From a virus: a stretch of DNA of 20,565 bases. Shown piece after piece: positions 4,904-20,443 of the stretch. Position numbers and translations under genes: made by a program. The notes below the pieces were generated by a model that was given only the letters and a program-made list of their open reading frames with translations, was not told where the DNA came from and searched no databases. The stretch is from positions 1-20,565 of IMG/VR virus record IMGVR_UViG_3300027881_000109; one strand, 5' to 3'. Position 1 is the stretch's first letter, and each line of letters begins with the position of its first letter.

Positions 4904-6693
4904 TAGCCTAGTAACTCCGCTTCTGCTTCGTCGTCAGCGAACTGCTTGTCCGCTACCTGCTTGATATTCTCGTCCTGCGCTTGCGTAGCAAGCTGCTGCG
5001 TCTTCTGTCGTTCTGATACTCGGATGTTATCCTGCACCAGTTCGAACTCTTGCAGTCCGAGGTTCTCCTCCATCAGTTTCGCTATCTTGAGCGAGCTGAT
5101 GTGAGCCTTCACGTCTTCGTCTTGGTAGGCTGCGCTGTTGACAAAGCCTAGGATATTCTGTACGACCTGAGCCTGCTTAGCAAAGTGTCGTGCCCCGATG
5201 GGGTACAGCTTGCCCTTGCTGTTCAGCATCTTCGGCGTTACCTTCAGGAACTGAGCTACTGCGAAGTCGTCGTCAAGTACCTTGACTACTTCCATTGCGT
5301 TGATGTTGCGTCGTGCCGACTCAAGCATCTGGTTTAGAAGGGGCTCGACGAAGTGTTCCTCGAAGTACGTGATCTTCTGTTGGAACAGTCTACCGGCTGC
5401 ATTCTGCAACTCTTGAACTTCGAAGGCTGTCTTCTCGCCCGGAGTTCGGATGCCCATAGCTTCCCTAGGGGCTCCTACGAGTTGCTCCATGTCCGTCATC
5501 ATCTGCTGCTTCTGGAAGTCAGCTTGCAATGCCGTTGCGTCTGGACGAAGAACATCGACGTGCGAGTCGACATCACCAAAGATGCGCTCGCCCGGTCCCC
5601 AGTTCCAGTCCTCTACCATGCCGCGCTGGTACACCACTGGGTGAGCTATCTGATCGAAGACATCAGCTTTCAAGTTCTCCAAGTGGTCCAGTCGGTACTG
5701 CATACCAACCAAGTTATCCAGCGGCCCCATAGCCATCAGGTTATCGGGTCGTAAACGCCAACCGACGTGCTCCTTGTTCGAACGGCCCAACCATGAGTCG
5801 ATTGGTTCATCGCTCACTACCTTGCGCCGGTCCATCACAATGATACGTCTGTTGGTCTTTACTTCCCCGCTTTCGACATCGAAGGTATCTCCTTCGAATT
5901 CGAGTAGCTCAACCATGTCCGATGAGTAGTACCCAGATAAGCTGCCGAATCCATCAATGACGAATCCTTCTGACTTCTCCAAGTCCGAGTCAGAGTAGGC
6001 TGACAAGTCTTGCCTAACTCGCGTAGTGTTTGCAAGAGCTTCATTGACCCAAGCGAAAGCTGGGTCGCTTTGTGCGGCTATAAGGAGTGATCCCATAGAG
6101 ACAATTGTTCGGGTGACTTTGGCTGCGTCCTTAAACGTAGCCGCAGACTGATCGAAGTAGATGTCGTAAGGGGATATGCGGTGGAGCTTGGGTCCACTAT
6201 AAATCCCCACAGCTGTCCCATCTGGTGTAATGTGAGTGTCATTCTCGTACGTGACTTCAGCGAACGAATTGCCATAGTCGATGTAATCATATAGTGCCTC
6301 ACTGATCATTGCCTTGAAGCCTGACTCACGGATCTTCTGCTTCATGTAGGACTCGATCATCCTAGCTGAATCACGGGTAGCAGCGTCTTGTGTGGCTGCT
6401 TCCCACTTGAACCAGTTATCGTGGGGGAACAATGCCGCCAAGTAGTTGGCGTGGAGGTTATCCCTGATCTGACAGATCTTGGGGATGCTCGTCTTATTCT
6501 TCCAAGGTAGCTGGTTGTTGGATGTCTGGGTCGTATCAGTCTGGAAGATGTAGTTGCGGAGTTCCCGCATGTCATTGTTCCAGTCCTGCCGTAGGTTCCG
6601 GTACGATACGTACTTGTTGACTACGAAAGACGACAACGCCTCCCCTTGAAGGGTAGCGTTGATCTCTTGTACTTTCTTGGATGTTCTAGCCAT
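4903..6693 (-). CDS. Portal protein
   Basis: The product has 596 residues and would form the dodecameric ring at the DNA-entry vertex, to which terminase and tail attach. Early residues (PWKNKTSIPKICQIRDNLHANYLAALFP, about 63-90) match the start of many podovirus-type portals. Residues 332-345 (QYRLDHLENLKADVFDQ) resemble the stem helix region, and residues 403-462 (EQLVGAPREAMGIRTPGEKTAFEVQEL and the following long helix) are the conserved portal C-terminal motif. The C-terminus is Gln/Asp/Glu-rich and disordered-looking. It starts 29 bases after the large-terminase stop with only a weak AGGG site, and ends in a TAATG overlap with the next gene. Confidence 0.9.
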   Translation of the reverse strand: MARTSKKVQEINATLQGEALSSFVVNKYVSYRNLRQDWNNDMRELRNYIFQTDTTQTSNNQLPWKNKTSIPKICQIRDNLHANYLAALFPHDNWFKWEAATQDAATRDSARMIESYMKQKIRESGFKAMISEALYDYIDYGNSFAEVTYENDTHITPDGTAVGIYSGPKLHRISPYDIYFDQSAATFKDAAKVTRTIVSMGSLLIAAQSDPAFAWVNEALANTTRVRQDLSAYSDSDLEKSEGFVIDGFGSLSGYYSSDMVELLEFEGDTFDVESGEVKTNRRIIVMDRRKVVSDEPIDSWLGRSNKEHVGWRLRPDNLMAMGPLDNLVGMQYRLDHLENLKADVFDQIAHPVVYQRGMVEDWNWGPGERIFGDVDSHVDVLRPDATALQADFQKQQMMTDMEQLVGAPREAMGIRTPGEKTAFEVQELQNAAGRLFQQKITYFEEHFVEPLLNQMLESARRNINAMEVVKVLDDDFAVAQFLKVTPKMLNSKGKLYPIGARHFAKQAQVVQNILGFVNSAAYQDEDVKAHISSLKIAKLMEENLGLQEFELVQDNIRVSERQKTQQLATQAQDENIKQVADKQFADDEAEAELLG

Positions 6694-6722: not shown

Positions 6723-8261
6723 TTATGCTGCAACTCCACCGAAGCGCCCGTGGGTCACTATGGTGGATGCTCTCCGTTTCAAGCCCCTATCTATCGGGAT
6801 GCGTACGATACCCATTACTGAGTGCAGTGCATCCTTGATGTCATCGAAGGCCGGGTTGTGTTGGATAAGCTCCTGCTCTAGGTCCTCGCAGAGGCCCCCG
6901 TAGTAGTGCCAGATGCTCATGTTCTCGTATCGAGGAGCCAGCGTGTTGTGAATGCGCTCCTCCTTGTTGCCCATTGTCCGAGTTGGTCTGAAGTCGTCTA
7001 CACTAAGGAGTAAACCGTCTTGGCGGATATCATCTCTGATACGCTCTGCGATCACCGCTTGTCCTGCCGTTACTTCAGCTCTGAGTTTCTTAAAGCCCCA
7101 TTTCAGATGGGCTTCTCGGATTATGTCGTAGTATCTCTTGGTCTTGTTTGTACGCTCACGCTTAATGTCGAGTACGTAGATATTTCCATCACTATCGACG
7201 CCCACAACAACAAGGACCGTATAGTCCGCTGTTGATCGGAGCGAAAACGCGAAATCAATAGCCGCGAACACTGCGAGTGGTCTACCGTTGTACGTCCACA
7301 CTCCGTCTCGCTTAGTAACCATCTCTCTGTTGTAGTACTGGAAGTACTCACTTCCTATCGCTTCCTCACCCGGATCGTTAGGGTTATTGTAATACTGGGC
7401 GTAGTATTGAGTGCGGTCAAGATACTTCCCACGTTTAGTAGCAAGGACGCGGGCGTTAAAACCGAACCAACGACCGTCACCGCGCTGTTGCCTAGGCCAA
7501 AGGTATTCACCCGTTCCGTCACCCATATCCTCTACTTCTTTTTGCCACACTTCATAGATAGGCTTAGAGTCAAGGACCTCCCCGTCTTTGTCCACAACGT
7601 CTTGTGTTGCGGCGACGAGAGTGCCGTATAGATCTTTAGGATGGTATCTCGTCCCAACAATCCACTCACGTGCGTCAGTGGTTTCAATGGATGCCAGTAG
7701 GCTATACTGAGACTCGACTTTCTTTCTACCATCTGTGGTATACGCATTCTCGTTGACAACGACATCGTCAAGCACGGCGATGTTACAATGGAGGCCCGTA
7801 ATTGATGTAGTAAGGCCAGCCGTAAATACGGTCGAGTCACGGACTCCTTCCTTTGTCCGTTTCGGATGATCAACGCAGATTTCTGAATTGGTCCACTTCT
7901 CACGTTTGCCTTCGTCGGGTAGCACCATCTGCGGCCAGTACCGCTTATACTTCGGGTGCACCAAGATGTCCTTGATGAATTTTAATTGCTTCTCTGCTAG
8001 CCCACTCGTGGCAGAGATATACAGGACCGTCACAGACGGGTCTCTTGTTATCTCCCAAGCCACTCGATAGGCTACCATCGTTGACTTCTGGTGATCTCGT
8101 GGGATCAATGCCATCTGATGATCTTCCGCACCATCACGAGTCCACCATTTGATGAGATCCTCGTGGCACTTGCCGAGGACCCTATGCGGGGCCACTAGTC
8201 TGATGAATGTCAGGAGATCGTCTTCCGCCGCGCTCCGTATTTGGTCAATAGTCGAAGCCAT
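6723..8261 (-). CDS. terL: Terminase large subunit (packaging ATPase and nuclease)
   Basis: The product has 512 residues, full length for the family. It pumps DNA into the procapsid and cuts the concatemer. The N-terminal ATPase has a Walker A variant PRDHQKST at 54-61 (many phage terminases keep R and K at the ends of a non-canonical loop), Walker B IAVLDD at 161-166, and the coupling motif VGTRYHP at 202-208. The C-terminal RNase H-like nuclease shows the metal-binding acids D336 (in AAIDFAFS), a probable acidic site at E396 (RAEVTAG) and D474/D477 (DDIKDALH). The ATG at 8259-8261 overlaps the stop of the upstream propeller gene by one base. The small subunit is two genes upstream, separated by the propeller pair. 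Confidence 0.93.
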   Translation of the reverse strand: MASTIDQIRSAAEDDLLTFIRLVAPHRVLGKCHEDLIKWWTRDGAEDHQMALIPRDHQKSTMVAYRVAWEITRDPSVTVLYISATSGLAEKQLKFIKDILVHPKYKRYWPQMVLPDEGKREKWTNSEICVDHPKRTKEGVRDSTVFTAGLTTSITGLHCNIAVLDDVVVNENAYTTDGRKKVESQYSLLASIETTDAREWIVGTRYHPKDLYGTLVAATQDVVDKDGEVLDSKPIYEVWQKEVEDMGDGTGEYLWPRQQRGDGRWFGFNARVLATKRGKYLDRTQYYAQYYNNPNDPGEEAIGSEYFQYYNREMVTKRDGVWTYNGRPLAVFAAIDFAFSLRSTADYTVLVVVGVDSDGNIYVLDIKRERTNKTKRYYDIIREAHLKWGFKKLRAEVTAGQAVIAERIRDDIRQDGLLLSVDDFRPTRTMGNKEERIHNTLAPRYENMSIWHYYGGLCEDLEQELIQHNPAFDDIKDALHSVMGIVRIPIDRGLKRRASTIVTHGRFGGVAA

Positions 8262-9307
8262 TAGGGTATGTACTCAAACTTGAATATCTTGACAGGAGTG
8301 TCGCTTGCCACATATATAGTGTTCCTGTCATCAGCAAGCCATATGTCTCTAAGCGTTCCTACCATTGGTGCTGATAGATCTAGTGTCTCCACTGTGTCTA
8401 GGACCAGCGTTGATATATCGCCAGCGGTGCCATACTCACCTACGTACAGTGTTTCATTGTAATTGGTGTACAGCCACTTGTCATCCGGGGTCTGTCTGAA
8501 TGACTGTGCTCTGGAAAGACCAGTAACCGGGGGCTCTATGTCTAGTGTGACGACACCAGTAATTGAATCCAGATCATATGCTGTGCCAAGAGACGCTTGG
8601 CCTATACTAGACTGTGATCCTACGAGTACTAGCATATACGCCTTGCTTCCGTCAGCATTGAACCAGCAGTTGCCATCAGGTGATCCTGTAGAACCAAACT
8701 CTGACTTGTCTGCTTGAGTCTGCAATGTGTCACCAGCGGCTACTTCATAAGCGGTACCAGCTGCATACTGCTTCATATCGTCAGAGCTGTCGATCAGAGA
8801 ATAGTTATTGCCCAACTGATTCCATCTGAAAGCTGCTGGATTAGTAAATGCCCTAGTGCTAGAAAGCACAGCAGTAGAGAAATCGAATGCGACTGACAGA
8901 TCATATACGTAGATGTCGTCATCAGCGTCATTACTGAGAGCCAGCTTGAGACCATCCTGTGTCATATCAAAGGAAGTAATCTTAGCACTAGCTTGATCTG
9001 TGATGAGAGCATTCAGATCATACGTAGCGCCGCCATCGGTCCACGTCTCTGTCAAGACGAAGTCGCTGGGGTTCTTTGGTGAGCCACCTGCGACACTGTC
9101 CTCGAAAGGCTCACTGGTGTCGCCTACGCCTAGCGTCACTTTATGCTGGTTCCACATGTCATCTAGTGACCCTGTGTAACCCTCTGCCCGCAACGCTTTG
9201 AATACGTCATCAGGCGTAGTAGTCTGTTCGGTGCCTCCAGTCAGCTCCTGCATCCGTGGGTCTGATGCCCTCGGAGGCCAAATATGTCCACCGTCTGAGG
9301 CAGCCAT
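8261..9307 (-). CDS. Beta-propeller virion/adhesin-like protein, paralogue B
   Basis: The product has 348 residues. Residues 1-75 are a compact domain (MAASDGGHIWPPRASD, QELTGG, GSLDDMWNQHKV, DTSEPFEDS) that is nearly the same as the N-terminus of the next gene upstream. The rest is a divergent propeller: blade motifs such as FDMTQDGLKLAL, CWFNADGSKAYM, FRQTPDDKWLY and WLADDRNTIYVAS alternate with GTAYDLDS- and GTAGDIST-type linkers. Propellers in phages usually bind partners or host-surface ligands. A surface or fibre role is inferred, not shown. It begins and ends with TAATG overlaps and so is made with the terminase genes. The linker signature is more degenerate here than in the paralogue. 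Confidence 0.72.
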   Translation of the reverse strand: MAASDGGHIWPPRASDPRMQELTGGTEQTTTPDDVFKALRAEGYTGSLDDMWNQHKVTLGVGDTSEPFEDSVAGGSPKNPSDFVLTETWTDGGATYDLNALITDQASAKITSFDMTQDGLKLALSNDADDDIYVYDLSVAFDFSTAVLSSTRAFTNPAAFRWNQLGNNYSLIDSSDDMKQYAAGTAYEVAAGDTLQTQADKSEFGSTGSPDGNCWFNADGSKAYMLVLVGSQSSIGQASLGTAYDLDSITGVVTLDIEPPVTGLSRAQSFRQTPDDKWLYTNYNETLYVGEYGTAGDISTLVLDTVETLDLSAPMVGTLRDIWLADDRNTIYVASDTPVKIFKFEYIP

Positions 9308-10329
9308 TACAGTAGCTCCAGCATGTACATCTTGTCTGCGCCACCTTGCCCGATACCGTATATCGTGGTCCCGTCACCATCTGGGTGCATGAACATCCCA
9401 TGAGGGCTGAGTGCGAATCCTGAAAGTACTATTGCGTTGCCTGAGTAGGCAGCTGTGGTAAGATCCCACGCTGTACTCAAATTGTATTGAGCGCAATCCT
9501 CGTCTGTGAGATCAGCTACATAGAGCCTAGTGCCTGATGGATCAAGGGTCATTGCGTAGCCAGAACCAGCTCCGGGTACCTCAGTCTTTACATCAAAGGA
9601 GTCGACGACTGAGCCCGTTGTCAGGTCCCATGCGGTGCTAAGGTTGGCTTGGATAACAAGGCCGTTACCACTGGCATAAACTTTATCACCGTCTGGGTTC
9701 ACGTATAGACCGTGACCTGAAGTGATACCCGTCATAGAGAGGGTAGCTACTGCGGCACTGATCGTTGACAGATCTCCCGGTGTACTCAATGTGTATGCTG
9801 TTACTGTGTTAGTGCCTGCTGTGATCGTCCATAGGATGGACATGTCTGCATTAAGCCACACATCCATTGGTCGACCGAGGTCTGCTGTTGGCGACCCATC
9901 ATAGACACTAGACGTGATATCGTATGGTGTACTGAGAGTCAATGATGTGACTATGTCGCCTGTGTCAGAGCAATGGAATACCCGTGTGCCATCGGCACTC
10001 ATCCAGAAGCCGTGGCTAAGAATAGGTACAGTAGAGAAGAAGATCGTGGCGTTGGGATCGAATAGATCTATGTCTGATCCTACGGCTCCACCACCACCTC
10101 CACCACCTGCGGCTATGGAGTCAGTAAAGGGCTCGCTGGTATCAGTGATACCGAGAGCAACCTTATGCTGCTTCCACATGTCGTCGAGAGATCCAACATA
10201 CCCAGCAGTACGCAGCGCAGCAAATACATCACCGGGCTTGCTGGCTTGAATGCCTGCCCCGGTGAGTTCTTGTATGCGTAGGTCCGATGACCTAGGGGGC
10301 CACACGTGGCCTCCGTCTGATGCTGCCAT
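9307..10329 (-). CDS. Beta-propeller virion/adhesin-like protein, paralogue A
   Basis: The product has 340 residues. The first 75 residues share roughly 50 identities with the neighbouring paralogue and end in DTSEPFTDS. A seven-glycine linker at about 75-81 separates this domain from a regular propeller. At least five blade strands are visible (GFWMSADGTRVF, VWLNADMSILW, GLYVNPDGDKVYA, AMTLDPSGTRLYV, GMFMHPDGD), spaced by four LST-x-x-DLT-type linkers (STPYDIT, STPGDLST and two copies of NLSTAWDLTT). This linker is characteristic of phage propeller proteins of unknown ligand. The layout suggests a particle-anchoring domain carrying a binding head; that is inference. It is coupled by TAATG to small terminase upstream and to its paralogue downstream. 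Confidence 0.75.
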   Translation of the reverse strand: MAASDGGHVWPPRSSDLRIQELTGAGIQASKPGDVFAALRTAGYVGSLDDMWKQHKVALGITDTSEPFTDSIAAGGGGGGGAVGSDIDLFDPNATIFFSTVPILSHGFWMSADGTRVFHCSDTGDIVTSLTLSTPYDITSSVYDGSPTADLGRPMDVWLNADMSILWTITAGTNTVTAYTLSTPGDLSTISAAVATLSMTGITSGHGLYVNPDGDKVYASGNGLVIQANLSTAWDLTTGSVVDSFDVKTEVPGAGSGYAMTLDPSGTRLYVADLTDEDCAQYNLSTAWDLTTAAYSGNAIVLSGFALSPHGMFMHPDGDGTTIYGIGQGGADKMYMLELL

Positions 10330-11286: not shown

Positions 11287-11320
11287 ACCCCGCAGTGACT
11301 GCTTCAACAGGGTGCGGGGT
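11287..11320 (-). terminator. Rho-independent-like terminator after the lipoprotein gene
   Basis: Read leftward, ACCCCGC (11320-11314) and GCGGGGT (11293-11287) form a perfect 7-bp stem around a 20-base loop, followed by TTCTTTC. It lies immediately after the lipoprotein stop codon. The loop is longer than ideal, so it may be leaky and let some transcripts continue into the packaging genes. Confidence 0.5.
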
Positions 11321-11638
11321 CTAGTATGGTGCCCAGTGGTCCCGTAAGACCACTTTGCAACTGTTATTCTTGAGATCCATCTTGATGTGCATAGGATTGT
11401 ACACCCTGTGCTCACCCGAATGGTCTATGTGCCAAACTGGTAGGTTGTTCTGTCTGTAGACTCTTTGGCAGAGATTCCAGTTCTCTTTGTCGATCAAGCG
11501 GCGCTCTTGCCGCACTTCTAATTGACATATTTGCCTTTCTAGGCTATCTACAGGCTTATCTTGACAATCAGGATATATGGTTTGGCAGCCCCCTAGGGCG
11601 AACAAACACACAACTAAAATTGAGAATATCCCTTTCAT
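11321..11638 (-). CDS. Phage-encoded lipoprotein
   Basis: The product has 105 residues. The N-terminus is a textbook lipoprotein signal: MKGIFSILVVCLFALGGC, with a charged start, a hydrophobic core and lipobox LGGC, so cysteine 18 should be lipidated and the protein anchored on the periplasmic face of a membrane. The mature part has a short Cys/Asp-rich region, a Glu/Arg helix (ERQICQLEVRQERRLIDKE) and a His/Trp-containing C-terminal part. Phage lipoproteins often act in superinfection exclusion or as outer-membrane spanins; nothing decides between these here. It is the first leftward gene after the control region, downstream of a good promoter and upstream of a terminator-like hairpin, so it may be expressed separately from the late genes. 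Confidence 0.75.
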   Translation of the reverse strand: MKGIFSILVVCLFALGGCQTIYPDCQDKPVDSLERQICQLEVRQERRLIDKENWNLCQRVYRQNNLPVWHIDHSGEHRVYNPMHIKMDLKNNSCKVVLRDHWAPY

Positions 11639-11640
11639 AT

Positions 11641-11657
11641 ATCATTCTCCGAATGAT
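11641..11657 (-). promoter_or_regulatory. Hairpin placing the lipoprotein ribosome-binding site in its loop
   Basis: Arms ATCATTC (11641-11647) and GAATGAT (11651-11657) are perfect around a 3-base loop. On the leftward mRNA the loop and the first base after it are GGAG, the only Shine-Dalgarno candidate for the ATG at 11636-11638. Folding would present or restrict the site, so translation may be controlled here. Confidence 0.5.
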
Positions 11658-11685
11658 TCTAAGAGTCCCAAAGGGACTACTTATC

Positions 11686-11714
11686 AATATATCCCCGACA
11701 TCTTACTCACTCAA
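11686..11714 (-). promoter_or_regulatory. Leftward sigma70-like promoter
   Basis: On the minus strand, TTGAGT (11714-11709) is followed by a 17-base spacer and TATATT (11691-11686). This is close to consensus with ideal spacing, about 48 bases before the lipoprotein ATG. The -35 part lies inside the left arm of the 11701-11768 inverted repeat, so a protein bound there, or a cruciform, would block it. It is the only promoter I could find in the region with near-consensus boxes and correct spacing. Confidence 0.55.
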
Positions 11715-11768
11715 AGAGTAAACGAACTCTTAGAGAGTTCTATAACTCGAACTCTTTTGAGAGTAAGA
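11701..11768. repeat. Nested inverted repeat (operator- or cruciform-like)
   Basis: The outer arms 11701-11719 and 11751-11768 are complementary over about 17 positions with one extra base on the left. Nested inside is a perfect 7-bp hairpin, GAACTCT (11724-11730) and AGAGTTC (11734-11740) with loop TAG. The half-site GAACTC appears again at 11748-11753, so it may be a repeated binding site. It overlaps the -35 element of the leftward promoter. Confidence 0.6.
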
Positions 11769-11782
11769 CAAGTTTGAGAGGG

Positions 11783-11800
11783 AAAAGTTCCCGAACTTTT
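11783..11800. repeat. Perfect inverted repeat, 8-bp arms
   Basis: Arms AAAAGTTC (11783-11790) and GAACTTTT (11793-11800) flank CC. The A/T ends on both sides would allow a weak bidirectional terminator or an operator. The inner GTTC/GAAC is shared with the neighbouring 11701-11768 element. Confidence 0.55.
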
Positions 11801-11914
11801 AACATCCACGTGTTCATGCGGGCTCCAGCCCGAACGCTCACATTTCTGTGAGAAACTTTTGACCTCGCTTTCCCTCAGAGACGACTCCCCTAGCTCCCCT
11901 CCCCTCCCCCTTAC

Positions 11915-11935
11915 CATAATAGCTCTGCTATTATG
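11915..11935. repeat. Perfect inverted repeat, 9-bp arms and 3-base loop
   Basis: Arms CATAATAGC (11915-11923) and GCTATTATG (11927-11935) flank TCT. The inner AATAGC/GCTATT is shared with the repeat at 11998-12016, so the pair may bind the same protein; the centres are 82 bases apart. Confidence 0.6.
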
Positions 11936-11997
11936 ATAAATAGTCGACCTGTTGCTTTTTTGCCACATACGGTATTAACCCCACGCCTACGAGACTT

Positions 11998-12016
11998 TCA
12001 ATAGCAAAGCTATTGA
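11998..12016. repeat. Perfect inverted repeat, 8-bp arms and 3-base loop
   Basis: Arms TCAATAGC (11998-12005) and GCTATTGA (12009-12016) flank AAA. It shares AATAGC...GCTATT with the repeat at 11915-11935. No T-run follows on either strand, so a terminator is unlikely. Confidence 0.6.
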
Positions 12017-12054
12017 TAAACCTTTAATTATCTCCCCTCATTTCAAGGTTGTAC

Positions 12055-12083
12055 AATATATTACAGCGGAGCTGTACTATATT
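12055..12083. repeat. Inverted repeat, 13-bp arms with one mismatch
   Basis: Arms AATATATTACAGC (12055-12067) and GCTGTACTATATT (12071-12083) pair except at one position, around loop GGA. The AT-rich ends with TAATAT- and TACTAT-like hexamers on either strand could belong to divergent promoters, but no matching -35 boxes are evident. Confidence 0.55.
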
Positions 12084-12135
12084 CCGTGCCGCCCGCGTGT
12101 CCTGCCCGGTAATGACCACGTACGCAAAAGAGTTT

Positions 12136-12177
12136 GGTCCACCTCCCCCTGAACAAAGTGAAGGGGGAGGATGGACC
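12136..12177. repeat. Long stable hairpin with loop GAACAAAGTGA, before the first rightward gene
   Basis: Bases 12136-12150 pair with 12162-12177 over 15 bp with a single bulged A, including six consecutive C/G pairs or more. The 11-base loop GAACAAAGTGA differs at one position from the loop of the hairpin at 12931-12973. It lies in the 5' leader of the first rightward gene, 26 bases before its start. No T-run follows rightward, so it is more likely a leader structure or processing site than a terminator. Confidence 0.65.
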
Positions 12178-12202
12178 ACCCCCCAAAAACCGGAGACCGA
12201 CG

Positions 12203-12385
12203 ATGCCAAACCGAGACCTGATCGACCTGCTTGACGAACTCCACGGAGTTCGGTTACAATGTAGCGACCAAGTGGAACTTGGTTGTTCACCTGCCGAGGC
12301 TGCTGGCCCTGTCGAAGACAGGGACAGGAGTTGGGCCGACCACGACGGAGCACCTGAGTTCCGTTCCTTGAACGGAGAGCACTGA
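12203..12385 (+). CDS. First rightward small gene, unknown
   Basis: The product has 60 residues, starting MPNRDLIDLLDELHGVRLQC, with one predicted N-terminal helix and a polar, acidic, probably flexible remainder ending FRSLNGEH. The ATG at 12203-12205 has CGGAG eight bases upstream; an in-frame ATG at 12134 would translate the long leader hairpin and is rejected. Its TGA overlaps the next ATG by one base (TGATG). The DNA carries four perfect inverted repeats in about 180 bases, at 12235, 12267, 12307 and 12360. No family is recognised. Confidence 0.6.
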   Translation: MPNRDLIDLLDELHGVRLQCSDQVELGCSPAEAAGPVEDRDRSWADHDGAPEFRSLNGEH

Positions 12386-12753
12386 TGGATTACCACAAGC
12401 ATAGCACGATAGCGGACTCTCTGAGTCCGATAGCACTGGCCGAGATAGCCCAGTCCTTTGGACTGGACATGGAGCCAGAGGACTACATGAGCGACGAAGT
12501 ATTCATCACTGATGAATACCTTGAGCGTAACCACGGCATGGTCACTAGTGACCATCACTGGGACCAAGCATGGCGCTTCGGCATTGTCGTTGACAATGAC
12601 TGTCCTATGCAAGGCTTGTTCGGGTTCTATAAGAACCCGGATGATCCTTGGGATGGCAGCTACTACGTGCCATGTGACTACGACGTTGAGATACCTTTGG
12701 TATCTCTTGACAACCCACCTAAGCTACTCAGCATAGCTGAGCAGGAGGCTTGA
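12385..12753 (+). CDS. Acidic early protein, unknown, gene full of hairpins
   Basis: The product has 122 residues and is acidic, with many Asp, Glu, Tyr and Trp (for example PEDYMSDEVFITDEYLERNH and DDPWDGSYYVPCDYDVEIPL). It has no membrane segment and no recognised motif; acidity of this kind is common in DNA-mimic and anti-host proteins, but that is only a thought. The ATG at 12385 overlaps the upstream TGA and has GGAG before it. Eight perfect inverted repeats lie in its 369 bases, and the codons seem to be chosen so that neighbouring segments are complementary. The stop is followed at once by the next gene. Confidence 0.7.
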   Translation: MDYHKHSTIADSLSPIALAEIAQSFGLDMEPEDYMSDEVFITDEYLERNHGMVTSDHHWDQAWRFGIVVDNDCPMQGLFGFYKNPDDPWDGSYYVPCDYDVEIPLVSLDNPPKLLSIAEQEA

Positions 12754-12754
12754 C

Positions 12755-12883
12755 ATGAACGGTTATCACCGCAAGCAAGATGGCAGTATCAGGTCCGATC
12801 TCTTTGAGATCGGTTGTGCTTTTGGAGTAGCCATCCTTATAGGATGGGCAATACTCAGCACCATGAATGGTGCTGGACTGTGA
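12755..12883 (+). CDS. Small single-pass membrane protein
   Basis: The product has 42 residues, MNGYHRKQDGSIRSDLFEIG, then a hydrophobic segment CAFGVAILIGWAILSTM (about 21-37) and a short tail. AGGAGG lies six bases before the ATG at 12755-12757, an excellent site, and the gene follows the previous stop by one base, so it is very probably real despite its size. It is predicted to sit in the inner membrane, N-terminus inside by the positive charges. Three perfect hairpins lie in its 129 bases. The role is unknown; small early membrane peptides of phages often modify host membrane proteins. Confidence 0.65.
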   Translation: MNGYHRKQDGSIRSDLFEIGCAFGVAILIGWAILSTMNGAGL

Positions 12884-12930
12884 GGCCAGATGAGAGACTA
12901 CTGAGAAAATCACCACCGAAGGTGGTGTCT

Positions 12931-12973
12931 GTTCCCCTACGACCTCGAACGAAGTGAGAGGTCTAGGGGGAAC
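12931..12973. repeat. Long hairpin with loop GAACGAAGTGA
   Basis: Bases 12931-12946 pair with 12958-12973 over 15 bp with one bulge on each side. The 11-base loop GAACGAAGTGA is the same as that of the 12136-12177 hairpin but for one base, although the stems differ. It lies in a 146-base gene-free gap (12884-13029) that otherwise holds only the last small hairpin of the array and the next ribosome-binding site. No T-run follows. Confidence 0.65.
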
Positions 12974-13029
12974 AGCCCCGACCGAACCGAAAGCCCACAG
13001 AGCAGGCCAGATGGCCGAAGGAGTTTGAA

Positions 13030-13368
13030 ATGGGTACAGCACGAGCTAGTAACAAGGACATCCTTGATGCCCTTGACGCAGGATTCGACCGCCTTATCAC
13101 GGCGCTTACTGCTAACGCAGTATCACCAGCAGCACCAGCTGCTACTCCTACCGAAGGTAGTAGCATCGACGTTGACCCAGAGTATCTGGCTCACATGACT
13201 GCTAAAGCAGCGGATCATGCTACTGCCAAGGGTGAGGACGTAGTCCTCTATGCTCGACGCAACAAGGCTGGCACTCTGAAGCTGGCTTATGCACTGCGAG
13301 CACGGTTTGATACCGTGGTTGCGAAGCAGCCTAGCTGCATCGGTCCAGTGGAGGAGTTCAAGGTATAA
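13030..13368 (+). CDS. Ala-rich helical early protein, unknown
   Basis: The product has 112 residues. The N-terminal part (NKDILDALDAGFDRLITALT) is a probable amphipathic helix pair, followed by an Ala/Pro/Thr linker (SPAAPAATPTEGSS) and a second, more charged helical part with RRNKAGTLKLAYALRARFD. It has no catalytic motif or membrane segment. AAGGAG lies seven bases before the ATG at 13030. The hairpin habit continues more weakly inside it (13107-13122, 13148-13160, 13234-13248, 13326-13338). It is followed by a strong terminator, so genes 12203-13368 form one transcription unit. Confidence 0.65.
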   Translation: MGTARASNKDILDALDAGFDRLITALTANAVSPAAPAATPTEGSSIDVDPEYLAHMTAKAADHATAKGEDVVLYARRNKAGTLKLAYALRARFDTVVAKQPSCIGPVEEFKV

Positions 13369-13386
13369 CCTTGGAGCTACCATCAA

Positions 13387-13413
13387 GGGCACCCCTTTGG
13401 GGTGTCCTTTATT
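13387..13413 (+). terminator. Rho-independent terminator
   Basis: GGGCACCCC (13387-13395) pairs with GGGGTGTCC (13399-13407) over 9 positions including one G-U pair, with loop TTT and trailing TTTATT. It lies 18 bases after the stop at 13368 and closes the first rightward unit. A new promoter would then be needed before 13455; I could not identify one. Confidence 0.75.
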
Positions 13414-13454
13414 GGTCGTTCTCCGACGATGTGGTTCCTAACCGATGGGATTAA

Positions 13455-13796
13455 ATGGCATGGGCTTACGCCATCCAGCCGCACCTTTACGTGAGCCACG
13501 CCCTTATCAGGGCCACCACATATAAGCATTCTCGGTGGCATGATGAGTGGAAAGGCGTGGCTTGCTTTTTCTATGTATGGAACGAGGGCAATTCAATGCA
13601 GATCACAAGGCGCAGTGGCTTGACAGGCGTAGTTCACACACGTGAGATAGACGTGGAACGTGAGCAAGTAGAGGCATGGGAAGGTGGTATGCTAATACAA
13701 GAGGCTATGCCTCATGTATCTAAGGATGACCGTGAGTTCATCATGTCTGGCATCACTCCAGAGGAGTGGGAAGCAGCCTTCATTGAAGGCTCGTAA
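13455..13796 (+). CDS. Early protein with REFxxSGxTPEEW motif, unknown
   Basis: The product has 113 residues. The C-terminal 45 residues include QVEAWEGGMLIQEAMPHVSK and then DDREFIMSGITPEEWEAAF. This run (AWE-G--IQ-A-PH, REF--SGITPEEW) is a signature I recall from many small phage proteins of unknown function, in which it follows a short N-terminal domain. The N-terminal half here is Tyr/His/Trp-rich. The ATG at 13455 has only a weak GGGA site about five bases upstream. A perfect 7-bp hairpin (13775-13791) lies over its last codons. The next 133 bases have no gene but contain a possible structured RNA. Confidence 0.65.
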   Translation: MAWAYAIQPHLYVSHALIRATTYKHSRWHDEWKGVACFFYVWNEGNSMQITRRSGLTGVVHTREIDVEREQVEAWEGGMLIQEAMPHVSKDDREFIMSGITPEEWEAAFIEGS

Positions 13797-13807
13797 CACC
13801 AAACGAT

Positions 13808-13903
13808 AGGGGTCCTGTCTATTAAACGCTGTAAGTCGTACGATGAGACAGATGGTACCGACGCTCTCCTCTCAGTCGCATGAGTGGAACGGCAGTGACC
13901 CCT
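13808..13903 (+). ncRNA. Candidate structured RNA (three-helix), leader of the next gene
   Basis: The 133-base gap 13797-13929 has no plausible gene. AGGGGTC (13808-13814) pairs perfectly with GACCCCT (13897-13903), closing 96 bases. Directly inside, CTGTCT (13815-13820) pairs with AGACAG (13846-13851), and a third arm is suggested by CCG/CGG (13858-13860 with 13890-13892) and CTCA/TGAG (13871-13874 with 13881-13884). This would be a junction-type fold just upstream of the ribosome-binding site of the gene at 13930. It lacks tRNA features (no T-arm sequence, no two-base spacer after the first helix), and I cannot match it to a known riboswitch or ribozyme. The outer helices are solid by sequence; the third is weak. 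Confidence 0.45.
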
Positions 13904-13929
13904 GATTACATAGAACGTGGGAGAATAGC

Positions 13930-14130
13930 ATGAATGATTGGCAACGCAGTGCATGGTACCGTCCCGGTACATGGATGTTGCCTAGATGGTGGACTAACGG
14001 ACCACCCGTAAGGGATGGACGTGCTACTTATGCTGAGCAACAGCACTTCTACTCAAGCCCCTTCGCAGTCAATGTGTTGGGCCACACTGGTGGTATGACT
14101 AAGCCCCCACCTACTACGGAGGCACCATGA
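13930..14130 (+). CDS. Small Trp/Pro-rich protein, unknown
   Basis: The product has 66 residues, MNDWQRSAWYRPGTWMLPRW followed by WTNGPPVRDG and a polar, Pro-rich end (KPPPTTEAP). Five tryptophans fall in the first 22 residues. No domain is recognised. GGGAG lies seven bases before the ATG at 13930. The TGA overlaps the next ATG in ATGA, the pattern used through most of the following cassette. Confidence 0.6.
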   Translation: MNDWQRSAWYRPGTWMLPRWWTNGPPVRDGRATYAEQQHFYSSPFAVNVLGHTGGMTKPPPTTEAP

Positions 14131-14291
14131 AGATCACAGTACGAGGGCGTACGATTAACACGTATGCTACGGTAGGCAACAAGCGATTCTATATGCGCTT
14201 GTATGAGACGTTCAGTGACGAGCGTTTGGATGAACTAGAGCAGGAGTCTAAGGACCGTGAATCAGAAGCAACCAACCAACACGATAGCTAG
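14127..14291 (+). CDS. Small basic-then-acidic protein, unknown
   Basis: The product has 54 residues: a basic beta-like N-terminus (MKITVRGRTINTYATVGNKR) followed by an acidic helix (SDERLDELEQESKDRESEA). The ATG overlaps the previous stop (ATGA), giving coupled translation. It shares 35 bases with the start of the next gene if that gene begins at its GTG. No family is recognised. Confidence 0.55.
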   Translation: MKITVRGRTINTYATVGNKRFYMRLYETFSDERLDELEQESKDRESEATNQHDS

Positions 14292-14511
14292 CTTCAAGGA
14301 ACGATGGAAGCGGCACAGTGTAGCTGTGCCCTCTGTTGTGCGTACCATACACCGGGTAGCTAAGGCTAAGGACTGGACCAAGGCTAAGCCCAAGTCAGTG
14401 ATGCGTACGTATGAGGAGACGGTCCATGCCAATGATGTCTACCGTGAGGTAGTCAATGGCAAGGTGACGAAACCCTTATGGCATCGAGGTGCTAGGGTAG
14501 GTATGGCATGA
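14257..14511 (+). CDS. Small basic protein, unknown
   Basis: The product has 84 residues and is rich in Lys and Arg (FKERWKRHS, HRVAKAKDWTKAKPKS), likely helical and possibly nucleic-acid-binding by charge. The frame has no ATG near its beginning; the GTG at 14257-14259 is the best start, with AGGAG ten bases upstream inside the previous gene. The 35-base overlap is larger than elsewhere in the cassette, so the start is the least certain part. A perfect 7-bp inverted repeat, GGCACAG/CTGTGCC, lies at 14310-14328. The TGA overlaps the next ATG. Confidence 0.5.
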   Translation: MNQKQPTNTIASFKERWKRHSVAVPSVVRTIHRVAKAKDWTKAKPKSVMRTYEETVHANDVYREVVNGKVTKPLWHRGARVGMA

Positions 14512-14657
14512 AACTCAAGCACAAGTACATGATCCCGCCTCTTGAACAGAGGAACAAGGAAGCATGGTGGGATAGGTATGGGCCTGCTATTGTTATTGGG
14601 GGCACGCTGTTATTCTGTGTATCCTTCACTGCTCTCTTACTATGGGTGGCACCATGA
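14508..14657 (+). CDS. Small single-pass membrane protein
   Basis: The product has 49 residues. The N-terminus is cytoplasmic-looking (MKLKHKYMIPPLEQRNKEAW), followed by one hydrophobic span of about 22 residues (AIVIGGTLLFCVSFTALLLW). It is joined to both neighbours by ATGA overlaps, which supports it as a gene despite its size. It would be an inner-membrane peptide with a positive-inside N-terminus. The role is unknown. Confidence 0.6.
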   Translation: MKLKHKYMIPPLEQRNKEAWWDRYGPAIVIGGTLLFCVSFTALLLWVAP

Positions 14658-14866
14658 AGCAGCCATACAACTGTGCCTATGAAGGCAAATGCCCCGTTAA
14701 AAAGGGTGATAAGGTGAGTGTGCTCGTCGATCCAGCCAAGGAACAGTGGGCACCGGGCATAGTACGCACGTGCTGTGCCATACAGTTCACCGCTAGGGTA
14801 GCGAAGCATACCCTATTCTTTTTCTACTCTGACCAAGGTGACACTTGGAAGGTGATGCAACAATGA
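14654..14866 (+). CDS. Small SH3-like protein candidate, unknown
   Basis: The product has 70 residues, MKQPYNCAYEGKCPVKKGDK then VSVLVDPAKEQWAPGIVR. The spacing of short strands with VKKGDKVSVLVD and APGIVR gives the impression of a small beta-barrel (SH3- or KOW-like), which is only a shape-based guess. Cysteines at 7, 13 and near 44-45 could bind a metal. It starts at the ATG at 14654 in the ATGA overlap; an upstream in-frame start would lie within the previous gene's membrane segment. It ends ten bases before the next start. Confidence 0.55.
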   Translation: MKQPYNCAYEGKCPVKKGDKVSVLVDPAKEQWAPGIVRTCCAIQFTARVAKHTLFFFYSDQGDTWKVMQQ

Positions 14867-14875
14867 GGGGTAGCC

Positions 14876-15070
14876 ATGTACATCATTCGTAACGACCATC
14901 GCAATGCATACAAGACGTATGATGGATGGACTACCATAGCAGGTGGCTGCTTGACTGGGCTAGCTGATGTACTCAGGTTCACAGAACGTGAGGCTGAACT
15001 CAACAAGGACAAGCTACCTAGCGGCAGTAGATTTGTCTACTTCCCACGCCGTAGATGGAGAGACTTATGA
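14876..15070 (+). CDS. Small early protein, unknown
   Basis: The product has 64 residues, MYIIRNDHRNAYKTYDGWTT then a Gly/Leu helix region with RFTEREAEL and a basic C-terminus (FPRRRWRDL). The pattern of an N-terminal strand, a turn, a helix with an acidic REAEL motif and a final strand could be a small alpha/beta fold. GAGGGGT lies five bases before the ATG at 14876, one of the stronger sites of the cassette. The TGA overlaps the next ATG. Confidence 0.55.
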   Translation: MYIIRNDHRNAYKTYDGWTTIAGGCLTGLADVLRFTEREAELNKDKLPSGSRFVYFPRRRWRDL

Positions 15071-15372
15071 AGGAATTAACATTCGCAAGACACCAGAACG
15101 CATCGGACTTCTGTACTACGGGGGCCACACACATCTCGTTGTGTCGTCGTATTATACGACAGTTCTTCGGCATCCCTGCCAATTGCACTGAGTTTACACT
15201 CGTGCTCAGTAAAGGACACCGTCCTAATGCCTATCGCATTGAAGATGCGGGTGGTGACTGCTACTGCTACATCGGTGGACACAAGAAACAGATGTACAGT
15301 GGTGCATATGGCAGGCTGACATATTTCCTGAGCTTGGGATACAAGTTTGTTCAAGTGGAGTATGAGTCATGA
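15067..15372 (+). CDS. Early cassette paralogue 1, unknown
   Basis: The product has 101 residues. It shows the pattern HISLCRRIIRQFFGIP, then FTLVLSKGHRPNAYRIE, and it ends YFLSLGYKFVQVEYES. The same order (a strand plus short helix with L-C and FG-hP, a strand with a small-residue turn before Pro, and a final aromatic strand) is found in the genes at 15369 and 16630, so the three look like diverged copies. The ATG at 15067 overlaps the previous stop (ATGA). A perfect short inverted repeat lies at 15146-15160. No outside family is recognised. Confidence 0.6.
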   Translation: MKELTFARHQNASDFCTTGATHISLCRRIIRQFFGIPANCTEFTLVLSKGHRPNAYRIEDAGGDCYCYIGGHKKQMYSGAYGRLTYFLSLGYKFVQVEYES

Positions 15373-15725
15373 AGGAACGACAAGAGTTTAAGATCAGACG
15401 CTTTGGTACCAGTAAGGTAGCATCGTGGCAACGTAGTAGTGGAAGCAATAGAGATCTCTTATGTGGCAGAGGTACCAACAGTACGCTGATCATACCGAAG
15501 GAGGTACGTGAAGCCTTCGTCGTGTTCACTAGCAAGCCCACTTCACAGAACTACCCTATCGTAGAGTATACGAAGGTGTTTCATTGGGGGTACGGTGGTG
15601 CGGAGCGTGTAACATGCCACAGGTTAGAGGGATACAGTGGTTCATTCATGTGTGCTGCACAAAAGTTACTGGAACGTATGTACAAGAAGGGCTACCGCTA
15701 TGTCCACATCGAGTACGATGTATGA
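15369..15725 (+). CDS. Early cassette paralogue 2, unknown
   Basis: The product has 118 residues. It has STLIIPKEVREAFVVFTSKP in the middle and ends LLERMYKKGYRYVHIEYDV, matching the end of the preceding protein (LGYKFVQVEYES) in pattern. Adjacent diverged copies suggest an old tandem duplication. It is likely a small soluble alpha/beta protein. ATGA overlaps join it to both neighbours. No catalytic motif is visible. Confidence 0.6.
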   Translation: MKERQEFKIRRFGTSKVASWQRSSGSNRDLLCGRGTNSTLIIPKEVREAFVVFTSKPTSQNYPIVEYTKVFHWGYGGAERVTCHRLEGYSGSFMCAAQKLLERMYKKGYRYVHIEYDV

Positions 15726-19108: not shown

Positions 19109-19332
19109 GTACAGGTGACACAGTAGTAACGGACATCGGGCTAGCCGATGAGCTAACGATGGACGATCTGGTGCGTACGGTAGTAGCCCAGATGTTTGAG
19201 AACGACAACGACGTAGCTACCCTTGAGGTAGTACTGAATGGTACTGATGCCAAGGAACCACCCAAGTTGGAGATCGAACTCCGACTCATGAGCATCAATG
19301 GACAACCAACGAGGAGAAGTGAAGATGGCTAG
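19105..19332 (+). CDS. Small acidic protein upstream of the AAA+ gene, unknown
   Basis: The product has 75 residues and is acidic: DIGLADELTMDDLVRTVVAQ followed by strand-like VATLEVVLNG and LEIELRLMSI. It has no catalytic motif. ATGA overlap joins it to the previous gene, and it overlaps the AAA+ ATPase start by 8 bases, so it may be made together with the ATPase and possibly work with it. That link is context only. Confidence 0.6.
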   Translation: MSTGDTVVTDIGLADELTMDDLVRTVVAQMFENDNDVATLEVVLNGTDAKEPPKLEIELRLMSINGQPTRRSEDG

Positions 19333-20443
19333 TCCGCAAGGTGGCTCACTCAAGGGGCTCTATGATCCTGACATCATCGACTCTATTGTGCAGCATAAGA
19401 AGGACGAGGTCGAAGCGACCAAAGAGGACCCCTTTGTAATTGATGATGCCTACAAGTTCGCTCAACAGGAAGGCACGGTCATGTTTAGTGAGGCATTCTG
19501 GATGCCGAAGGAGATACCGGACATCCCATTGCCCATGTTTAAGGTGGAGGACTGGCATGAAGAAGCACAGCTACATATCCCAGACAAGGACCCCAACTGG
19601 GTGTGGAATAAGGGCGTTACTGAAAGGCTCGCACTCGCACTCTATTGCGGTGACACTACTCTACTTCATGGGCTCCAAGGAACTGGCAAGTCATGCCTCG
19701 CTGAGCAATGGTGTGCTACATTTGTCGTCCCGCTCTGGCGTATGTCATGCAACGTCGAGACAAGAGAAGCACACTTCCTTGGCTCTGCATCCATCGACTA
19801 TGAGGAGGTGAACGGTGAAGCCAAGATGTTCATTAAGCAAGAGCCTACCATCCTCACTGACAGTCTTAAATATGGTGGACTATTTCTCGAAGACGAAGCC
19901 TTCAGGCATAACAGCGCACTTGTGCTCCAGTCTCTTAGGGAGAAAAACACAAGGACCGTCCTTCTACCAGACGCACCGGGTCGTACAGCAGATGAGCGTA
20001 GGCTCGTTGCAACTGAAGGTAGATGGTGGTACATACTCACTGACAACACATGTGGGACTGGTGACGAGACAGGTGTCTTTGACGCTCAAGTGCAAGACGC
20101 TTCTACCTTGGACAGAATCGGTGCCTGTATCGAGGTCAGATACTTGGGCAAGTCTGATGAGAAAGACATCATGCGCAAGCACACTAGCCTTAGTGACGGG
20201 CAAATCTCAGGTATTATAGACTATGCCAAGCTAGTACGTAAGGCGTTCGAGAACCAATCGCTACTGTCTACGTTCTCAGTACGCTCACTGCTAGCATGGG
20301 GTGAGAAGGCTGAGATGACACAGAACTTGGAGCTTGCACTCCGTCTTACATGGTACGAGAAGCTATGCACTGACGACAAGGCTGTTGCTCGTGAGATGTA
20401 CCATCAGGTGTTTGCTCGGAGACTAATCAAAGGTGACGCATGA
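19325..20443 (+). CDS. CobS/MoxR-type AAA+ ATPase
   Basis: The product has 372 residues. AAA+ motifs are complete: Walker A GLQGTGKS (116-123), Walker B LFLEDE (186-191), sensor 1 at LTDN (N241), an arginine-finger candidate R264 in STLDRIGA, and a sensor 2 candidate R320 in FSVRSLL. The order and the insert before sensor 1 resemble the CobS subunit of cobaltochelatase and the MoxR family; many marine phages carry such a gene. These ATPases remodel a partner with a VWA domain, and the next gene is a candidate. Whether the phage protein acts in cobalamin chemistry is doubtful. I chose the ATG at 19325 (MASPQGG), with GAGGAG upstream; an ATG at 19298 adds nine residues. Confidence 0.85.
   Translation: MASPQGGSLKGLYDPDIIDSIVQHKKDEVEATKEDPFVIDDAYKFAQQEGTVMFSEAFWMPKEIPDIPLPMFKVEDWHEEAQLHIPDKDPNWVWNKGVTERLALALYCGDTTLLHGLQGTGKSCLAEQWCATFVVPLWRMSCNVETREAHFLGSASIDYEEVNGEAKMFIKQEPTILTDSLKYGGLFLEDEAFRHNSALVLQSLREKNTRTVLLPDAPGRTADERRLVATEGRWWYILTDNTCGTGDETGVFDAQVQDASTLDRIGACIEVRYLGKSDEKDIMRKHTSLSDGQISGIIDYAKLVRKAFENQSLLSTFSVRSLLAWGEKAEMTQNLELALRLTWYEKLCTDDKAVAREMYHQVFARRLIKGDA

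Follow-up and report, generated by a model that had tools for sequence, protein, structure and literature searches.

A dense array of short, evenly spaced hairpins in the early region of a Zobellviridae-type phage, with a proposed structural role in DNA

The window, which is the whole of a 20,565-base virus record, encodes a terminase that is 55-57% identical to those of Zobellviridae phages of Lentibacter, Roseobacter, and Celeribacter (ICBM, CRP-4, SIO1), and its homologous terminase, portal, capsid, and other genes are common to all ten phages of this type that served as controls. Late genes run leftward from ~11,640 and early genes run rightward from 12,203. Short hairpins crowd this divergent junction and the early genes beyond it, beginning 3 bases past the start codon of the last leftward gene (11641) and ending at a terminator-like hairpin (13404). 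The features are as follows.

11641..13404, no strand: whole hairpin array, 21 triloop hairpins (arms of at least 6) and 32 perfect inverted repeats (loop 0-5)
11641..12202, no strand: noncoding stretch of the array that separates the divergent late and early genes
12135..12178, + strand: longer imperfect hairpin just 5' of the first early gene, with a long stem at the same place in relatives
12203..12385, + strand: early gene 1, 60 aa, dN/dS 0.49 against the relative G001; hairpins at 12235-12252, 12267-12283, 12307-12323, and 12360-12376
12385..12753, + strand: early gene 2, 122 aa, 54% aa identity to G001, dN/dS 0.17; hairpins at 12413-12429, 12450-12466, 12499-12519, 12538-12555, 12582-12598, 12621-12639, 12688-12706, and 12727-12741
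12755..12883, + strand: early gene 3, 42 aa, one hydrophobic segment; hairpins at 12795-12813, 12831-12847, and 12856-12875
13030..13368, + strand: last array gene, 112 aa
13390..13404, + strand: last hairpin, CACCCC-TTT-GGGGTG followed by TCCTTTATT, the terminator-like right end of the array

The array genes are real genes, as they are under purifying selection, with dN/dS values of 0.13-0.49 against relatives. The 112-aa family, which has the conserved motif VVLYARRN..GETKLAYAL, occurred in each of the seven array genomes that were compared, as well as in contig L072 (747-1073), and it was found in 0 of 10 control phages, in 0 of 50,697 phage records, and nowhere in the genome collection. 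It had no significant match in Pfam or PHROG. We regard its product as a candidate array-binding partner. The long imperfect stem before the first early gene, also seen in L007, L009, G001, and G002, may be a separate leader element. Elsewhere in the window, two adjacent late genes on the - strand (8261-9307 and 9307-10329) have near-identical starts (MAASDGGH[I/V]WPPR...) and are likely a tandem duplication of a tail or fiber-type gene. The early region also holds a CobS-like AAA+ ATPase followed by a CobT-like gene (19298-20443 in the window and 12436-15662 in G001); such genes are common to Vibrio phage ICP2 and to T5S1 and absent from SIO1-like phages.

A previous sequence-only reading of this DNA had reported 16 perfect inverted repeats in 12235-12927. 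Scanning for perfect inverted repeats with arms of at least 6 and loops of 0-5, we counted exactly 16, covering 285 of the 693 bases, and 12 of them have a 3-base loop. The corresponding averages over 1000 dinucleotide-preserving shuffles were 0.78 inverted repeats (maximum 5) and 0.13 triloops (maximum 2). An array does lie there, but that interval is too narrow. Over the true extent, 11641-13404, the 21 triloops compare with 0.33 in 1000 dinucleotide shuffles (maximum 3), and the 32 perfect repeats compare with 2.0. Within the four array genes, 12 triloops were observed versus 1.04 after synonymous shuffling (maximum 5 in 1000), which rules out a side effect of amino acid or codon usage; the late genes of the window have 4 versus 1.4 by the same measure. 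The arms are mutually unrelated, as had been claimed, with no repeat families seen. What had been missed were the constrained hairpin centers (C-NNN-G, with R-N-A on one strand), the regular spacing, and the recurrence of the array in relatives.

Relatives were collected as 29 IMG/VR loci fetched by terminase, on contigs that differ in completeness. Seven lineages carry a clear array, namely, G001 (L003), G002 (L004), G005 (L009), L007, L006, G008 (L014/L072), and L013, and one more (G009, which is L017) carries it weakly; the arrays of L009, L010, and L011 are identical. Each of these uncultured phage genomes has a single dense cluster of ~2 kb, at the same divergent late/early junction. Pooled, these clusters contain 166 triloop hairpins where 3.3 are expected (50-fold), and they show a weaker, 6-9-fold enrichment for loops of 2, 4, and 5. 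In the kilobase that precedes the 112-aa gene, hairpin density stays level at ~15 per kb, and past the array edges it drops to ~0.5-1 per kb. No cluster was found in T7, in the 50 of 70 kb of N4 covered by the scan, or in the ten Zobellviridae-type controls scanned for hairpins (ICBM1, ICBM2, P12053L, CRP-4, SIO1, ICP2, MEP401, VP41s3, T5S1, and ctOsX528). As probes for further relatives, the 122-aa and tail proteins gave no matches, and the contigs found with CobS either stop before reaching the array or already belonged to the set. An assembly or amplification artifact was rejected because the open reading frames that contain the hairpins are under purifying selection, and because contigs from different samples have hairpins at homologous codons.

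Two smaller observations concern the DNA outside the arrays. In G001, G002, and others, loops of 3-5 are in ~2.5-fold excess there, which is not seen in control phages. In addition, several relatives have a single CCCC-TAC-GGGG hairpin slightly outside the array on its late side (G001, reversed, at 5343; G002 at 26089; G005 at 12825; L013 at 6007; and also G008/L014).

The hairpins obey a narrow set of rules, which we expressed as a class with arms of at least 6, the center C/T-[RNA or TNY]-G/A (degenerate letters), and at least 6 members in 2 kb. The closing pair is 5'C-G3' in 84% and T-A in 12%. Among 153 loops, the end bases are G..A in 48, T..C in 30, A..A in 28, and T..T in 31, with all others making up 16. 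Since these four classes account for 137 of the 153 (78 for G..A/T..C and 59 for A..A/T..T), the hairpins read C/T-R-N-A-G/A on one strand or the other. The two orientations are about equally frequent (76 versus 61), and they follow no order from one end of the array to the other. The central loop base is A/T, and no other stem or flank position in the pooled hairpins carries much information. Loops fall in codon phases 0, 2, and 1 in 53, 28, and 8 cases, which would be the order in which wobble positions aid stem building.

Stem length, stability, and spacing are also constrained. Stems of 5, 6, 7, 8, and 9 bp number 18, 43, 52, 23, and 8, giving a mode of 6-7 bp, and the counts of stems of 4 bp or less, and of stems that carry other loops, come close to background. 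Shorter stems are richer in GC (0.61 at 6 bp and 0.48 at 8 bp; Spearman -0.32, P 0.0002), and folding energy is therefore held in a narrow range, with a spread of 1.51 kcal/mol versus 2.14 kcal/mol in random stems of the same lengths (0 of 200 random sets were as low). The mean distance between centers is 45.0 bp in the window, 43.5 bp in G001, and 38.1 bp in G002 (~43 bp overall), with coefficients of variation of 0.27, 0.26, and 0.35, respectively, where 0.53-0.59 is expected. Spacing is over-regular in L007 and G005 as well, marginally so in L006, and not regular in G008.

Comparison with relatives shows stems in which both arms have changed together. Three examples from the window are as follows.

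12450..12466, no strand: CCAGTCC-TTT-GGACTGG; in G001, AAGGCC-TTT-GGCCTT (two compensated pairs)
12582..12598, no strand: CATTGTC-GTT-GACAATG; in G002, CATCGTC-CTT-GACGATG at the same codons (compensatory pair)
12911..12927, no strand: CACCACC-GAA-GGTGGTG; in G001, CAACACC-GAA-GGTGTTG, and in G002, CAACAACC-GAA-GGTTGTTG

Other pairs of relatives have likewise compensated while remaining intact on both sides (CACTTCC-AAA-GGAAGTG and CACTACC-AAA-GGTAGTG; CCCCAGT-TTC-ACTGGGG and CTCCAGT-TAC-ACTGGAG). In the 61 comparisons that could be aligned, counting both directions, the arms were identical in 18, compensation was complete in 13, and the hairpin was not kept in 30, and some hairpins moved or disappeared while the protein was kept (GLPLVDDEGY and GLPLIEDEGF). 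Arm changes between relatives are frequently compensated, and it is the hairpins, rather than their sequence, that evolution keeps. Among in-class 6-bp stems, 132 are perfect, 2 have one internal G-T, 2 have A-C, and 6 have another mismatch; these mismatch counts are close to background, whereas ~46 G-U stems would be expected for RNA if ordinary structured RNA has an assumed G-U share of 8%. Synonymous shuffles and compensation in relatives were the two tests by which the sequence-only reading had proposed that its hairpin idea could fail, and the idea survived both.

Because of the class rules, the even spacing, the restricted energy range, the compensation, and the intolerance of G-U, we favor selection for hairpins in DNA, and we consider it likely that the hairpins are selected at that level. 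A clue to their working form comes from phage N4, where hairpin extrusion requires a 3'G:C5' closing pair and a loop with 5'G and 3'A, takes place at physiological superhelicity, and is gyrase dependent in vivo (PMC4496689). As the letters of the array hairpins match the N4 rules, extrusion as mini-cruciforms is, on balance, the probable working form. The match covers the C-G closing pair and the G-N-A/T-N-C loops, and it extends only in part to the ~40% of array hairpins with A-N-A/T-N-T loops, which fall outside the N4 data. Sheared A-A pairs occur in DNA loops of this kind. Extruded cruciforms and single-stranded hairpins on either strand are not separable by sequence alone. It is also the case that G001 encodes a T7-type endonuclease I, a cruciform cutter, as do array-less controls, and its presence sits oddly with many extruded cruciforms.

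For the array contigs, host, physical ends, and direction of DNA entry were taken from relatives. Two cultured relatives, ICBM1 and ICBM2, have their direct terminal repeat, which marks the physical genome end, at the same late/early junction. We infer from this that the window's physical genome end lies at the 11641..12202 junction, and thus that the array probably extends over the early end of a linear genome, an end that in related architectures would enter first.

The explanation we propose, which we hold to be about evenly poised between right and wrong as a whole, is that selection has written a DNA hairpin array into the early genes and the adjoining end region as a structural device. 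Under negative supercoiling, hairpins would extrude from the duplex as mini-cruciforms, and the array would act on the early, probably first-entering, genome end, and not as a promoter set. By simple arithmetic, ~35 hairpins of ~16 bp could absorb ~50 negative supercoil turns if all were extruded. The entered DNA would then be knobbly at regular intervals, and such DNA could hold the incoming end, buffer the topology of the early region, or give a structure-specific protein something to grip, the co-occurring 112-aa product being a candidate. Assigning the array a structural or topological role, on the genome as it enters or in its early phase, is itself tentative; such a role is favored over a promoter role, with a protein-binding array as its strongest rival. 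A more mechanical version, in which gyrase winds the entering early end negatively and the mini-cruciforms that emerge every ~43 bp serve as supercoil-driven DNA pawls that buffer supercoiling and rectify DNA entry, is in our judgment unlikely.

The strongest rival, close to the recognition array for a hairpin-binding protein that the sequence-only reading had also raised, holds that the array is bound by a structure-specific protein, which would build a nucleoprotein complex on the early or terminal part of the genome, with the 112-aa product, HU, phage SSB, and endonuclease I among the possible binders. Structure conserved without sequence, regular spacing, and a 112-aa family found only with the array all speak for it. 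Nevertheless, co-occurrence within one clade may only reflect shared ancestry, and the structure model of the 112-aa product is of medium confidence (pLDDT 69) and has no significant fold match, including in the PDB. We rate this reading as fairly unlikely. The idea that the palindromes are operators for a dimer that binds duplex DNA was rejected because arm complementarity is kept while no arm sequence is kept.

Alternatively, the hairpins might be entry sites as in N4, where a phage or host polymerase or a primase would start after recognizing extruded or single-stranded hairpins. The sequence-only reading had raised N4-type hairpin promoters, and the structural class, the C-GNA-G letters, and the early-region position do agree with promoters of the N4 virion RNA polymerase (vRNAP). 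The same scan of the N4 early region picks up the in-class hairpins GTTGC-TTC-GCAAC and AAGAAGC-TCC-GCTTCTT, which we take to be N4 virion polymerase promoters. The promoter role itself is not supported, given random orientation, the lack of a conserved base outside the loop and closing pair, and the failure to find a vRNAP homolog. Orientation is random although the operon runs one way, and no stem or downstream base is conserved, whereas N4 promoters need -8G and +1C (PMC4496689); neither these bases and a central purine nor a single orientation was found in the array. The ~35 sites are also far above the three of N4. A search with PF00940 found no single-subunit RNA polymerase in the array phages; this profile finds T7 RNAP and N4 RNAPII and is blind to the N4 virion polymerase, so the relevant test is tblastn with the N4 mini-vRNAP region, which gave no match in 7 array records, some of which are fragments, although a very distant homolog could be missed this way. 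The large internal virion protein has no polymerase similarity. Taken together, entry sites of this kind seem improbable.

It is also conceivable that the hairpins arose neutrally, with template switching at nascent-strand hairpins perfecting near-palindromes, as the sequence-only reading had suggested. Such quasi-palindrome correction is known, for example, in transcribed yeast DNA (PMC3820800), and it would account for perfect arms, rare intermediates, and hairpins that move between relatives. It would leave energy independent of stem length and spacing unselected, and we found the opposite on both counts: stem energy is tuned against length, with a stem-length mode of 6-7 bp, and spacing is over-regular. 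Also, loops are confined to four letter classes, and coding density (17.3 per kb) is not below noncoding density (12.9 per kb) despite purifying selection. Tuned stability, a defined stem length, and even spacing thus weigh against this origin, to which we give little chance.

We give similarly little chance to genome-end processing or an origin, that is, concatemer cutting, terminal-repeat duplication, or the start of replication at the late/early junction. Hairpin ends are known in T7 concatemer processing, the terminal repeats of ICBM1 and ICBM2 are at this junction, and the window has a skew minimum near 12 kb. This minimum is confounded with gene direction, however, and one or two sites would suffice for such a function, whereas the array spans more than 1 kb of genes.

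A structured early mRNA that resists nucleases, avoids Rho, or binds a protein is very improbable. The array does coincide with an early transcription unit that ends in a terminator-like hairpin, and its + strand folds strongly, but the opposite strand folds equally well, with RNA folding energies of -293.2 and -292.7 for the two strands versus -231 in shuffles. Loops are likewise strand symmetric, and the noncoding end region belongs to the array. Stems have no excess of G-U, compensated hairpins show no transition bias (15 transitions to 14 transversions), and Rfam, searched with 11300-13700 to a limit of E 1, had no matching family. The lack of G-U pairs and the strand symmetry contradict this suggestion of the sequence-only reading, which is already largely refuted, and the evidence points to DNA itself, seen from both strands, over RNA.

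Two further candidates were set aside. A terminator cluster does not fit T tails on only some hairpins or stems inside genes, and evasion of CRISPR, in which hairpins would spoil spacers from the first-entering end, would fit poorly with a spacing that would spare many spacers.

If the proposed reading is right, protein-coding DNA would be under strong, measurable selection for DNA secondary structure over ~2 kb and at even intervals, with compensatory evolution maintaining it. Small cruciforms could then be studied in a natural system, to learn if they arise and have a function in living cells; until now, a few N4 promoters have been the only setting for that question. Phages would, in addition, have a way by which they could control entry, topology, or early expression without sequence-specific sites, and, should the pawl version be correct, a mechanical or topological device would be encoded in the codon choice of the first genes.

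We know of no such DNA hairpin array, and we found no description of one in the open papers searched; similar arrays may exist in other phage groups. REP/BIME mobile palindromic repeats also place many small hairpins close together, but their copies share sequence, whereas the arms of the array are unrelated and its sites lie in genes. Quasi-palindrome correction by template switching yields perfect short inverted repeats with small loops, as seen here, but it is a sporadic mutation that predicts no energy tuning, even spacing, or restricted loops at a conserved place. Among the Zobellviridae (Siovirus and Veravirus, with SIO1, P12053L, ICBM1-3, and CRP-4, and Icepovirus ICP2), the terminase is 50-57% identical, and the late genes, the divergent late/early architecture, and, in ICP2, the CobS/CobT-like genes are the same; the array and the 112-aa gene are absent from all ten relatives scanned. 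In N4, three directional promoters with conserved bases are read by a 3,500-aa virion polymerase, unlike the ~35 randomly oriented hairpins within coding sequence, with no conserved stem or flank base, that make up the array. The N4 (Schitoviridae) promoters nevertheless share with the array a stem of 5-7 bp, a 3-base loop, C-G closing, G-N-A on one strand, and a place in the early region of a podophage, and their hairpins are extruded by supercoiling (PMC4496689).
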